Part shown: positions 568 through 23,515 of the stretch, piece by piece | Layout: every line of letters starts with the position of its first letter | Position numbering within the stretch: position 1 is the stretch's first letter | DNA from: a virus | Direction: 5' to 3' (one strand) | Length of the DNA: 30,378 nt | IMG/VR virus record: IMGVR_UViG_3300042691_003169 | Coordinates: 1-30,378 of that record | The notes under the pieces: model-generated | Told to the model about the DNA's origin: nothing | Seen by the model: the letters and a program-made list of their open reading frames with translations, nothing else | Databases searched by the model: none | Program-made: the position numbers and the translations under genes

Positions 568-1214
568 CTCTCTTAGTTGCCAACGCTTCTAAGGAAGCCG
601 CCGAGTATGCGGCTAAGAATTGGCATTATTCGAAGTGTTTACCCGTCGGCAAGTTAGTCAAGTATGGGGTTTGGGAGAACGAGAAGTTTATCGGGGTAGT
701 TATTTACTCTCGCGGCGCAAGCCCGAACTTAGGAACTGCTCTTGAACTTGACCAGACCGAAGTTTGCGAACTCACCCGCGTAGCTCTCGATAAGCACGAA
801 GCCCCTGTTAGTCAGATCGTAGCGATTACTCTTACTCAGTTGAAGAAAGACAACCCGGCTCTAAGGGCGGTCGTTTCTTTTGCCGACCCGAAAGAAGGAC
901 ACGTCGGCGGAATCTATAAAGCGGGCAATTGGTTATTTACTGGGTTAAGTAATTCAGTCGTCGAGTATTTTATCGAAGGGCGTTGGATGCACACTCGCAA
1001 CGCTTACCACCACCCGCACCGACCGACCGCCGCAAAGCGTGAGAGTCCGGGAAAGTTCCGCTACATTTACCCGCTCGACCGACCTATGCGGAAGCAAGTT
1101 TCTCTGCTAGCCTTACCTTACCCAAATGCGGTCGAAGGCTTGAAGGTAAGCCGCCAAGTTTCCGACTTGGAGAAGCAGGTTCGATCCCTGCCGACCGCTC
1201 GAAAGAAGAACTAA
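564..1214 (+). CDS. Mom-like DNA modification protein (GNAT-fold)
   Basis: Resembles phage Mu Mom and its actinophage relatives, GNAT-like enzymes that modify adenine to N6-(methylcarbamoyl)adenine and protect phage DNA from restriction. Recognisable blocks are 'YSRG' (48-51), 'ELTRVAL' (69-75), 'SFADP' (105-109), 'GGIYKAGNW' (115-123) and 'KFRYIYPLD' (164-172). Length, 216 aa, is close to the Mu protein. A basic tail of about 30 residues follows the core. The start overlaps the ParB-like gene (ATGA) and the stop abuts terS (TAATG), so modification and packaging genes share one operon. The chemistry is inferred from family resemblance; the sequence does not prove activity. Confidence 0.8.
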   Translation: MTLLVANASKEAAEYAAKNWHYSKCLPVGKLVKYGVWENEKFIGVVIYSRGASPNLGTALELDQTEVCELTRVALDKHEAPVSQIVAITLTQLKKDNPALRAVVSFADPKEGHVGGIYKAGNWLFTGLSNSVVEYFIEGRWMHTRNAYHHPHRPTAAKRESPGKFRYIYPLDRPMRKQVSLLALPYPNAVEGLKVSRQVSDLEKQVRSLPTARKKN

Positions 1215-4917: not shown

Positions 4918-6839
4918 TGCCTTACTTCATTACGGACGAAAGCTCAGACTGCTCAGGTTGGGCGGTCGTCGATTCTGCGGGCGAAGTTTTTGGTTGCCAC
5001 GAAACAAAAGACTCAGCGATAAAGCAAGCGGTCGCTATCAGTCTTGGCGACGACGAACCTTTTATGGGAGAACGAAATGAAAATGGCGACCCGATTATTA
5101 TTAGTGATCTTGACGACACTCTTATTCGTGGTCGTTCTCTAATTCGCAAGACCTACAACTATTTACAAACTCTCGACGGGGCTTTATTCCTAGTTACAGG
5201 CAGACCGACCGCCGACGAAGCGGAAACCCGCCAGACCCTAAAAGACTTAGGCGTTCGCTATACTCGACTAATTATGAATCCCGGTTCGCTTGCCGAATCG
5301 ACCGACTTCAAGAAGGCAACCGCTGAGAAGTTGCTTGAAACTTACAACGTGCTAGAAGCGGTCGAGAATAACGCCGAAACTTTGCGGGCTTACCGTTCGC
5401 TCGGTATCAAGGCGACCGACCCAGCCGACCTACCCGAAGAGAACTCGGTTAGGGCTATAAATCAAGAAGCCCCCGCTTATATGAGAGCCGCCGCTCGACG
5501 CGGGCTTGAGTATTACGAGCAGGGACTAGCAGGGGACGGCGTAGTCGATCGCACTATCCGAGAAGCTCGACTAATGGCGGACGGTCAAGTTAGCGACGAC
5601 AAGTGGGTTCGAATAGCGGCGTGGATCGCCAGACACCTAGTAGACCTTGATAGCCCAGACGCAGACCCGAACTCGGACAACTATCCTTCGGCGGGCGTAG
5701 TCGCTCACTTGCTTTGGGGTAGTGGACCAAGTAAGCGGGCGGCGGAACGTGCTAAAGATTACGCCGACTCGGTAGTTAGTAGAATTAGGGAAGAAGAAGA
5801 AAGCGAACGTATGACTGAAGAAAATCGCGCATTACCGGGCGAACTTACCGTCGGCGACTATGTTGCTTGGCTTATCGGAACTGAAGCCTATGCTGGAGAA
5901 ATTGTTGAGCTTATGGACGAATCTGCCGAAGTAGTAATCTACAACGAAGAAGATCACGTCTGGCTTCCAACGGGTCTAAAGGTTACCGTCCCTATCGCCG
6001 ATCTCAAGAAGGTAGACCCGCTAATCGAACCCGAAGAACTCCCAGAACTTACCGAGTCTATGATTATCCCTACCCGGACGAAGTGGCTCAACGCCGCTTA
6101 CGCTATCAAGGCAAGAATCGAAGGGGTTACGGACGAAGGCAGGGCTAAGAACCCTAACGAAACCCGAATCGCCGACGTTACTTTCGAGCTTAGGGAAACG
6201 ACCGACGGTATGACTTTCGAAGGCTACGCAGCGGTTTTCAATTCAGACTCTAGCCCGCTACCCTTTATCGAACGTATTGCTCCGGGTGCTTTCTCGAAGA
6301 GCCTAAAGTCTAGGAACGACATAAAGCTTCTATGGAATCACGATACGGGAATCGTTCTTGGATCGACTAGGGCTGGCACTCTTCGACTTATGGAAGATAG
6401 TTTCGGTCTGAAAGCGGTCGCTTCTCTACCAGACACCCAAGCGGGACGGGACGCGGCGGTGTTGCTCAAGCGTGGCGACGTTTCGGCTATGAGTTTTGGC
6501 TTTACCGTTCCTACGGGCGGCGACTCTTGGGATAAGACGGGCAACGTTCGCACCCTAAACCGAGTTTCTCTCCACGAAGTTTCTTTAGTGGCTTTCCCCG
6601 CATATAGTTCGACGACCGGGACGACTTCAGTTCGCTCAGTCGAAGGCGGTATCGACGCAGACACTCTCGCAGACGCACTACTGAAACTCGAACTAGGTGA
6701 AGAGTTAGAAGCAGACCAAGCAACCCTAGTTACCGAAGTAGTTGGTAAACTTACAAAGACTCCAGAAGTTCAAGAAGTCGAAGGCGATATCTTAGCTCTG
6801 AAGAAGAAGAAACTCGATCTACTAATGTTAGGAATCTAA
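4917..6839 (+). CDS. Multi-domain prohead protease with N-terminal HAD phosphatase-like domain
   Basis: 640 aa from ATG 4917, which overlaps the preceding stop (an in-frame ATG at 4860 would overlap 58 nt). Residues 1-48 are a small domain with 'CSGWAVVD' and 'GCHETKDSAI', seen in actinophage maturation proteases. Residues 59-175 are HAD-like: motif I 'DLDDT' (64-68), 'VTGRP' (93-97), a lysine in 'DFKKATAEK', and 'VENNAET' where acidic motif IV is expected. Residues ~185-290 are helical. Residues ~308-365 have an SH3/KOW-like strand pattern ('GDYVAWLIG'). Residues ~415-565 are the HK97 prohead protease (U35): 'FEGYAAVF', 'LWNHD' (H475), 'MSFGF' (S526), 'HEVSLVAFP' (553-561). The protease should trim the capsid delta domain. 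Whether the HAD part is enzymatic or a scaffold is unknown. Confidence 0.9.
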   Translation: MPYFITDESSDCSGWAVVDSAGEVFGCHETKDSAIKQAVAISLGDDEPFMGERNENGDPIIISDLDDTLIRGRSLIRKTYNYLQTLDGALFLVTGRPTADEAETRQTLKDLGVRYTRLIMNPGSLAESTDFKKATAEKLLETYNVLEAVENNAETLRAYRSLGIKATDPADLPEENSVRAINQEAPAYMRAAARRGLEYYEQGLAGDGVVDRTIREARLMADGQVSDDKWVRIAAWIARHLVDLDSPDADPNSDNYPSAGVVAHLLWGSGPSKRAAERAKDYADSVVSRIREEEESERMTEENRALPGELTVGDYVAWLIGTEAYAGEIVELMDESAEVVIYNEEDHVWLPTGLKVTVPIADLKKVDPLIEPEELPELTESMIIPTRTKWLNAAYAIKARIEGVTDEGRAKNPNETRIADVTFELRETTDGMTFEGYAAVFNSDSSPLPFIERIAPGAFSKSLKSRNDIKLLWNHDTGIVLGSTRAGTLRLMEDSFGLKAVASLPDTQAGRDAAVLLKRGDVSAMSFGFTVPTGGDSWDKTGNVRTLNRVSLHEVSLVAFPAYSSTTGTTSVRSVEGGIDADTLADALLKLELGEELEADQATLVTEVVGKLTKTPEVQEVEGDILALKKKKLDLLMLGI

Positions 6840-7056: not shown

Positions 7057-7139
7057 GGGCTAGGTAATGGTTTCGATTAGTCGTAAAACCCGAAACGGGA
7101 ACGGCTAAGACCAGAGTTCGATTCTCTGCTAGTCCACCG
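7057..7139 (+). ncRNA. tmRNA-like RNA reduced to the tRNA-like domain
   Basis: Acceptor stem GGGCTAG (7057-7063) pairs with CTAGTCC (7129-7135) over 7 bp, with a G-U at the third pair, the alanine identity mark of tmRNA and tRNA-Ala; A at 7136 is the discriminator. Next comes a 5-nt linker and GGTTTCGA (7069-7076), the stemless D-loop box of tmRNA. A helix TTAGTCG (7077-7083)/CGGCTAA (7102-7108) takes the place of tmRNA helix P2. It is capped by 18 nt containing the hairpin CCCG-AAA-CGGG (7089-7099). GAC then leads into a T-arm CAGAG-TTCGATT-CTCTG (7112-7128). The end, CCACCGA, is like actinobacterial ssrA. No tag reading frame or pseudoknots fit in 18 nt. It lies just after a terminator, so it needs its own promoter or is processed from read-through. 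Confidence 0.75.
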
Positions 7140-7176
7140 AATCTGTATTACATACACCATTTAGAATTGACTTAGG

Positions 7177-7217
7177 TTCTGAGTCTGCTCGACCTGCTTC
7201 TGTTCTGAGTCTGCTCG
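7177..7217 (+). repeat. 15-bp tandem direct repeat before the capsid gene
   Basis: TTCTGAGTCTGCTCG occurs exactly at 7177-7191 and 7203-7217, 26 bp from start to start, 39 bp before the major capsid ATG. The spacing is about 2.5 helical turns. The second copy runs into CTGC-TCG-GCAG, a small potential hairpin (7211-7221). A TTGACT -35-like hexamer lies just upstream at 7167-7172, but no convincing -10 follows at 17-18 bp. A regulator binding site or promoter element is possible. Confidence 0.6.
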
Positions 7218-7255
7218 GCAGAAAAACCCCCTAATTCATTTATCAAAGGAATCTA

Positions 7256-22044: not shown

Positions 22045-22818
22045 ATGCTAAATACGATACAGAACGAAAACTGCCTAGAAACTCTTGGGCGAATTAGCGA
22101 CGAAACTATCGACCTAGTTCTTACGTCGCCGCCCTACGACAACCTACGAACTTACAACGGCTATTCTTTTGACTTTGAGAACGTAGCAAAAGAGTTAGTC
22201 CGAGCTTTGAAGCAGGGGGGGGTAATTGTGTGGGTAGTTGGCGACGCAGTTCTAAAAGGGTCTGAGAGCGGATCTAGTTTTAGACAAGCCCTGCGATTTA
22301 TCGAGCTTGGTCTGAATCTTCACGACACTATGATTTTCGAAAAGAATAGCCCGGCTTACCCAGCAAAAGCCGACGGTAATCGCTATACCCAGATTTTCGA
22401 ATATATGTTCATTCTCAGTAAAGGTAAGCCCAAGACCGCGAACCTTATTTGCGACAAGCCGAATAAGTGGGCGGGGTTCAAAGACTATTCGGGCAAACTG
22501 AAGAACCCAGTCCCAGACTTCTCGCCAAGAAACAATATTTGGCGGTTCGTAACTTCTATGAACGGAGTAAAGCACCCCGCACCCTTTCCCGAAGCTCTAG
22601 CCGCAGACCATATTGCTACTTGGTCTAACGAAGGCGAATTAGTTTACGACCCTTTTATGGGTTCCGGGACGACCGCTAAAATGTCGATTCTGAGCGGACG
22701 TAATTTTATTGGTTCGGAAATTAGTAGCGAATATGTTGCTTTAGCAAATGCTAGGCTGACCGCTACTCAGGCAGAGCTAGCTTTACGATTCCTAATCGAC
22801 GATAAGAACTTCGTCTAG
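22045..22818 (+). CDS. DNA methyltransferase, beta class (N6-adenine or N4-cytosine), copy 1
   Basis: 257 aa. Catalytic motif IV 'TSPPYD' (27-32) precedes the AdoMet-binding motif I 'DPFMGSGTT' (202-210), the order of beta-class N6_N4 methyltransferases. Residues ~130-165 are the variable, probable target-recognition section. The closest relative in this window is the enzyme at 26794, with long shared stretches such as 'GSESG-SFRQAL' and 'NLHDTMI-EK'. No restriction endonuclease gene is adjacent, so it is likely an orphan protecting phage DNA or mimicking a host mark. Target base and site cannot be read from the sequence. Confidence 0.9.
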   Translation: MLNTIQNENCLETLGRISDETIDLVLTSPPYDNLRTYNGYSFDFENVAKELVRALKQGGVIVWVVGDAVLKGSESGSSFRQALRFIELGLNLHDTMIFEKNSPAYPAKADGNRYTQIFEYMFILSKGKPKTANLICDKPNKWAGFKDYSGKLKNPVPDFSPRNNIWRFVTSMNGVKHPAPFPEALAADHIATWSNEGELVYDPFMGSGTTAKMSILSGRNFIGSEISSEYVALANARLTATQAELALRFLIDDKNFV

Positions 22819-22832
22819 AAAGAAGAATTACC

Positions 22833-23248
22833 TATAACTAAATAGCAATACCACGAAATAGGGGCGTGTAAATCTTGGACTTTAGTTCAAGGTTCGGAGA
22901 GTGCCAACTCGTTAAGCCGAACTCAAGTCAATTTCCCGTCGATTCATAGTCGCGGTTTCAGTGGGTTAGAGCCAGACTGTTTAGCATACCCGGCGCAGAA
23001 ATGAAGCTTTAGATCGGGTAAAAGTCGAAGAGAGATCGACAAGAGCGTCAGCGGCGTTACTAAACCGTATCTACCTAGTAACCGAAGAAGTCTGCTAACG
23101 CGTATGGCGTAGATAGTCGATATCGTAAGACTCGACCCCGACCGAAACCCAAGAGTCCCTTGGCGTTTGAGAGTTGGTGCGTAACTAAGCCCTTCTCTCT
23201 CCCTTCGAGAACCCGTAAGCGTTTATTAGATACTGCTAGGGTTTTTGT
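22833..23248 (+). ncRNA. Gene-free 430-bp stretch, candidate structured RNA
   Basis: No convincing plus-strand gene lies between 22819 and 23248. Consecutive local helices are found: TTGGAC/GTTCAA (22875-22890), GTTCGG/CCGAAC (22893-22922) enclosing GAGT/ACTC, TACCCG/CGGGTA (22987-23020), GTCGA/TCGAC (23024-23040), GTTAC/GTAAC (23056-23082), TATCTAC/GTAGATA (23068-23115, alternative or pseudoknot to the previous), GTCGA/TCGAC (23116-23136), AAACCCAAG/CTTGG-C-GTTT (23145-23168) and GAGAG/CTCTC (23169-23199). TATAAC at 22833-22838 could be a -10. AACCC/GGGTT followed by TTTTGT (23210-23248) could end it. I do not recognise the family. Confidence 0.5.
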
Positions 23249-23515
23249 ATGGACGAGCAGAAGATAGTTTGCGTTAGGTGCGGGCAGGTGAGCTTCGTTC
23301 CGCTTGATAAGCGCAAGCGCAAGGACGGGTTGTGCTTCAGTTGTCGTATGCGACCCGCTAAGACTATTAGTTATGGTTTCGGTAAGCCCTGTAAGCCGTG
23401 GGGTGGTGAGTTCGATCCAGACGATAACCCGCTTGTGGACGGTGAGTTGTTTATGCCCGGTGAGCGTATCTGCGGGCATAAGGACTGTGTGGAAGTTGAA
23501 CATTGTCGGGTGTAA
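23249..23515 (+). CDS. Zinc-ribbon protein
   Basis: 88 aa with 'CVRCG' (8-12) and 'CFSCR' (29-33) forming one probable zinc site, and a C-terminal 'CGHKDCVEVEHC' similar to the zinc loop of HNH_3 proteins and small actinophage proteins. The linker is basic (KRKRKDG). Preceded by the 17-nt motif shared with the start of the window (23229-23245) and by TAGGGT 6 nt before the ATG, so it may have a leaderless or very short leader transcript. Probably DNA or protein binding. Confidence 0.75.
   Translation: MDEQKIVCVRCGQVSFVPLDKRKRKDGLCFSCRMRPAKTISYGFGKPCKPWGGEFDPDDNPLVDGELFMPGERICGHKDCVEVEHCRV

Follow-up and report, generated by a model that had tools for sequence, protein, structure and literature searches.

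The locus studied here raised the question of what a 430-bp stretch without a gene does in a densely coding phage genome. The window, i.e., the whole analysed stretch of 30,378 nucleotides from the IMG/VR virus record IMGVR_UViG_3300042691_003169, contained no plus-strand open reading frame (ORF) of at least 40 aa between positions 22819 and 23248, and this was its longest such gap. The original prediction had described a gene-free island in a genome of more than 95% coding density; the island was confirmed, and the density was slightly too high, as forward ORFs of at least 45 aa covered approximately 94% of the window. The flanking genes were those proposed, namely an N4/N6 DNA methyltransferase upstream (22045-22818; Pfam PF01555, E 2.5e-41) and, downstream on the plus strand, an 88-aa Cys4 zinc-ribbon-like protein recognised from protein alignments (23249-23515). 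The latter was followed by an SSB-like gene, named after the gene order of the Pontimonas phage phiPsal1, and by a RusA resolvase gene assigned with Pfam. A protein conserved in one frame, which the prediction had named as evidence against an RNA, was looked for on both strands of 13 copies of the element and was not found; all six frames were interrupted by several stops in each copy, and no long frame was held in common. The minus-strand ORF at 23075-23503 was rejected as a coding explanation, having neither a Pfam family nor a conserved frame. ARAGORN reported no tRNA or tmRNA within 22819-23248.

Thirteen further copies were found in IMG/VR phage contigs, giving a total of 14 with that of the window. 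Four of them were close (85-89% identity, broken by clearly paired substitutions), eight were distant (approximately 56-58% identical to the window where measured) and one, L128, was very divergent. A profile search with the zinc-ribbon protein yielded 80 loci, five of which carried a distant copy (nhmmer E ~1e-15 to 1e-19). L116 was recovered by a pattern search for the pseudoknot described below, L124 and L125 by a pattern search for the P4-P5 region, and L128 by a covariance search of the contigs behind the zinc-ribbon loci. The R1 search of the zinc-ribbon loci gave no further credible copy, and the R2 search returned one copy in 49 records. The RNA was present once in each genome tested. 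The 14 contigs belong to one phage group and form two close clusters and four others; assembly errors are possible in IMG/VR contigs, yet 13 other contigs agree with the window. The carriers appear to be phages of freshwater actinobacteria. The window phage grouped with phiPsal1 (terminase 48% identical), which keeps the order methyltransferase, zinc-ribbon, SSB; the RNA was absent from this cultured relative, as well as from G005 (the contig of locus L037), which has a 73%-identical terminase and a close zinc-ribbon gene. Cultured phages and plasmids, searched with several copies, gave zero matches. Other candidates were discarded: the sole match in GTDB species genomes (L119, a chance match of the pseudoknot pattern) and the pseudoknot-pattern matches L111-L113 lacked the rest of the RNA, the weak R1 matches L129 and L130 had no R2 support and were taken as chance, the extra matches of the 17-base motif GACCGAAACCCAAGAGT (L014, L015, L018 and L019) were chance occurrences in coding sequence, and a second match of the P5 hairpin in relatives fell within a coding gene.

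Eleven copies served to derive the fold, which comprises P1, P1a, P2-P5, P6/P6a, P7-P9 and the pseudoknot. The expected row of at least eight stems was borne out by 12 supported helices plus a pseudoknot, all on the plus strand. Of the proposed structured RNA of approximately 390 nt, the structure was upheld by covariation; the conserved core spans approximately 347 nt (22892-23238), which close relatives extend by two covarying 5' hairpins (22852-22891). These accessory hairpins were seen in close copies only: hairpin A (22852-22868) reads CACG/CGUG in the window versus CCCGAA/UUCGGG in relatives, with compensatory changes, and hairpin B (22874-22891) reads CUUGGAC/GUUCAAG in the window and CUUGGC-UUCG-GCCAAG in relatives. 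Within 22892-22922, two-sided changes were present in 5/6 pairs of P1 (22892-22897/22917-22922) and 3/4 pairs of P1a (22899-22902/22907-22910). P2 (22936-22955) had two-sided changes in 4/8 pairs, with 98% of cells paired, and P3 (22959-22979) in 5/6 pairs; the conserved 7-nt loop of P3, GUUAGAG, was retained even in the divergent L128. P4 (22987-23020, pairing 22987-22992 with 23015-23020) carries a long conserved loop and showed two-sided changes in three of six pairs in the MAFFT alignment and in four of six in the structural alignment of 11 copies. P5 (23024-23040), with a GAGAG loop, was 100% paired, with two-sided changes in 4/5 pairs. Within 23045-23101, P6 (23045-23055/23091-23101) changed on both sides in 8/11 pairs and P6a (23056-23062/23076-23082; 100% paired) in 4/7. 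The P7 hairpin (23116-23136; two-sided changes in 5/7 pairs) is capped by a GNRA tetraloop, read as GUAA, GCAA, GUGA or GCGA across copies. P8 (23145-23168) was more weakly supported: MAFFT misaligned it (56% paired), and its 96% pairing with two two-sided pairs in the structural alignment rests on alignment by hand. P9 (23169-23199) was 100% paired on the structural alignment and, being almost invariant, has no covariation support. A tentative long-range helix, PT (22982-22986/23234-23238), was paired in 98% of counted cells, with one-sided (wobble) changes only in the counted alignment; by hand, its outer A-U pair was replaced by G-C in most distant copies and mismatched in L039 and L116. 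Conservation extended beyond the helices to the GUUAGAG, GAGAG and GNRA loops and the pseudoknot strands.

The overlapping pair at 23056-23115, noted earlier as an alternative or a pseudoknot, turned out to be a real pseudoknot. It corresponds to P6a plus the pairing of its loop (23068-23074) with 23109-23115, and 100% of cells were paired. Its strands were nearly invariant in the first 11 copies, with wobble changes only. The later L124 and L125 carried two compensatory double changes (CAUCUGC/GCAGAUG versus UAUCUAC/GUAGAUA), and L128 a third (AACUAC/GUAGUU). These changes constitute independent confirmation, as the covariance models omitted the pseudoknot.

In the MAFFT alignment of 13 copies, built from sequence only, standard pairs occupied 91.7% of cells over 87 pairs (tentative PT included). 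Two-sided changes were found in 43 of these 87 pairs versus 4-12 with slid partners, and the covariation score was 0.468 versus 0.036-0.093 after sliding, a value reached by none of 500 shuffles. The MAFFT alignment of 11 copies gave 41/82 pairs versus 2-9. A tree-based null, in which each column's substitutions were scattered on the tree, was applied to 11 copies. The observed scores summed to 40.5, whereas none of 400 simulations exceeded 2.5 (z=12.9), and 11 pairs taken singly had E<0.05. Since this tree-based test used an alignment hand-adjusted to the structure, the counts from MAFFT alone are to be preferred. Absence of covariation, the outcome that would have told against the prediction, was thus strongly contradicted. 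The expectation of a better folding energy than that of shuffled sequence failed: single-sequence values were not unusual (z=-0.85 for the plus strand, -0.01 for the minus strand). This test is itself weak, a near-zero single-sequence z-score can mask a strongly constrained RNA, and energy alone would have overlooked this one. There can be very little doubt that the element acts as a structured RNA whose fold is maintained by selection.

The family was indeed one that could not be recognised: no Rfam match was obtained at E<=10 for 22819-23248 and none in distant copies, the models with zero matches including ROOL, GOLLD, OLE, Intron_gpI, RNase P, SRP, 6S, tmRNA and the riboswitch and leader models. 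A description of this RNA was not found in the open-licence literature. A large fold that recurs in 13 or more further phage contigs and belongs to none of the Rfam families is therefore probably a working RNA. Only a few RNAs of this large, pseudoknotted kind have been described in phages; the most familiar, ROOL and GOLLD, have no established function. ROOL is longer than the present RNA, and GOLLD was first noticed in lake metagenomes. The present RNA is like ROOL in being a large, highly structured, pseudoknotted phage ncRNA not bound to a protein product; it differs in its shorter length, its place beside DNA-modification and replication genes and the missing Rfam match. With GOLLD it shares the character of a structured phage RNA and an occurrence in lake metagenomes, but neither sequence nor structure matches. 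ROOL is often near tRNA islands, as are GOLLD members, which often exceed 800 nt (PMC12286853). This setting is not found here, where the one tRNA-Gly of the window (1128-1200) lies approximately 22 kb off. By analogy, the family would in its working come closest to the ornate phage RNAs as a broad class (PMC12286853), being smaller and in a different gene context. It forms a separate, smaller family, whose alignment is adequate to seed a covariance model and whose fold is adequate for the design of mutants.

The slot directly 5' of the RNA was an exchange hotspot for DNA-modification and HNH genes: the N4/N6 methyltransferase of the window was replaced by a C5-type methyltransferase in L030, L031, L034, L116 and L124, a Mom-like gene in L039 and L125, a DruA-like (DUF4338) protein in L032 (whose sequence recurs at the end of L033) and an HNH gene in L035, L036, L038 and L128. 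The 5' edge of the RNA unit coincided with the swap boundary. At this edge, CCTATAAC was conserved in five close copies, and CCTATAAT was located ~12 nt before P1 in four distant copies whose farther-upstream sequence differs. A -10-like CCTATAA[C/T] was present in nine copies, even with differing upstream sequence; L035, L116 and L124 had no recognisable counterpart. The consensus promoter scan gave no plus-strand promoter in the 22833-22838 region, so that TATAAC at 22833-22838 is put forward as a putative -10 box from its conservation. On the 3' side, 13 of the 14 copies lay directly 5' of the zinc-ribbon gene. The invariant GCUA at the core end (within 23234-23238) ended exactly 10 nt before the ATG or GTG start codon in all 13 linked copies, across a spacer of variable sequence. 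Shine-Dalgarno (SD) pairing was nil or weak in eight of these 13 (0 to -1.6 kcal/mol) versus a median of -5.5 kcal/mol for the genes of the window. For the zinc-ribbon gene in phages without the RNA, the median was -3.3, and low values were common there too. The window yielded no intrinsic terminator that would separate the RNA from the zinc-ribbon gene. Sequestration of the SD site by an AACCC/GGGUU hairpin was rejected, as the hairpin was not kept in distant copies. The fourteenth copy, L128 (1589 to about 1940; R2 E=2e-13, R1 E=5e-6), is situated between an HNH gene and an unrelated 90-aa ORF, which likely starts at an internal ATG at 2046 with its own SD; the zinc-ribbon gene was not found 3' of it, its 3' half (P8, PT) gave no convincing match, and the locus had no recognisable promoter.

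The computations directly establish the fold with its pseudoknot, the family with its one copy per genome, and the existence of a single zinc-ribbon-free copy. Our preferred reading of the locus, with a probability of about 0.5, is that 22846-23238 (5' end approximate) represents a new phage RNA family, large and pseudoknotted, whose members would probably act in trans as autonomous ncRNAs. Such an RNA would probably be transcribed from its own putative -10 promoter, situated in the early region of replication and recombination genes. The transcript would fold into ~12 hairpins and the pseudoknot between a loop and a downstream strand, and its most likely partner during infection would be a protein or ribonucleoprotein of the host or the phage, which the folded RNA would bind. 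Autonomy is favoured by L128, where the RNA stands free, and by the many zinc-ribbon genes that do without it, only 9 of the 80 zinc-ribbon loci having carried the RNA; the example of L128 is a single divergent copy with a poorly matched 3' half, which counts against it. The exact 10-nt spacing and the missing terminator also count against autonomy, since both fit a 5' leader acting in cis (whether riboswitch-like, autoregulatory or ribosome-recruiting) that would control translation of the zinc-ribbon-SSB-RusA operon and, ending 10 nt before the start codon, substitute for or gate the SD site. Such a role is a serious competitor with somewhat less in its favour, roughly one chance in three, and is kept alive by the spacing, held despite a variable spacer; the weak SD sites and the constancy of the downstream gene while the upstream gene swaps also argue for it. 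Large cis-acting leaders, e.g., the cobalamin riboswitch and the ribosomal-protein leaders, are well known in bacteria, and the position immediately 5' of one gene at fixed spacing is like theirs. However, no leader model of Rfam matches, a copy exists without the gene, most relatives of the gene do without the RNA, the constant spacing may be mere inheritance, and low SD energy is frequent for the gene without the RNA as well.

An RNA of the ribozyme or intron type, be it group I-like, self-cleaving or processed, and perhaps mobilised together with an adjacent HNH endonuclease gene, is unlikely. Phage group I introns are ~350-400 nt long, with a pseudoknotted core and an occasional HNH neighbour, and the present RNA is comparable in all three respects; in addition, one gene junction occurs both with the RNA (L034) and without it (L037). 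On the other hand, the copies tested matched none of the intron or ribozyme models of Rfam, the HNH neighbours are a minority, and the RNA is intergenic, flanked by two separate complete genes rather than split exons; the junction of L037, which lacks the RNA, likewise consists of two separate genes and not of one continuous gene. A group I assignment by eye, with CAGACUG/AGAUAGUC as P7, was rejected because L030 alters one strand only. An origin or recombination anchor, whose hairpins would act in DNA at the gene-exchange hotspot, could account for the swapping upstream genes and for the coincidence of the unit's 5' edge with the swap boundary, but is very improbable, because the G-U pairs kept throughout, the UUCG and GNRA tetraloops and the conserved long-range pseudoknot with wobble intermediates are hallmarks of RNA. 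Within the preferred reading of an autonomous trans-acting RNA, a more specific role may be considered, namely a new class that would aid survival of a DNA-targeting host defence or the takeover of the host. This role is suggested by the fixed seat of the RNA at a slot that swaps DNA-modification genes (two methyltransferase types, Mom-like and DruA-like), and we regard it as a speculative proposal with rather low odds.

Several further observations concern the zinc-ribbon gene and other elements of the window. The zinc-ribbon protein is widespread in phages (encoded by 114 or more stretches in IMG/VR) and combines the Cys4 arrangement with a C-terminal C-G-H-x-D-C-V-x(4)-H motif; it matched no Pfam family at its cut-off, its AlphaFold model (pLDDT 85) had no convincing structural relative, and its gene lacks annotation in phiPsal1. 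L034 (upstream of 2662) and L037 (upstream of 3001) present the same gene junction filled and empty, respectively, and the start region of their zinc-ribbon genes is alike with and without the RNA (CTTGGAT..GTGGATGATAAC). The tRNA-Gly of the window, with a UCC anticodon, lies within the 3'-terminal part of the ORF (564-1214) for a Mom-like DNA modification protein, on the same strand. A tmRNA-like, tRNA-like element of ~82 nt was observed at 7057-7138, just before the major capsid gene. It has a 7-bp acceptor with G3-U70 (GGGCUAG/CUAGUCC), a T-arm (CAGAG-UUCGAUU-CUCUG), a tmRNA-like GGUUUCGA and a long arm ending in a small hairpin, and the mRNA-like part is absent. ARAGORN and Rfam missed this element, and its tRNA score was only 18 bits; it covaries in L126, L127, phiPsal1 (L021, about 5568-5650) and G018 (L132). 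Between it and the capsid gene (~7172-7225), two copies of the direct repeat GTTCTGAGTCTGCTCG are present and are kept in relatives.
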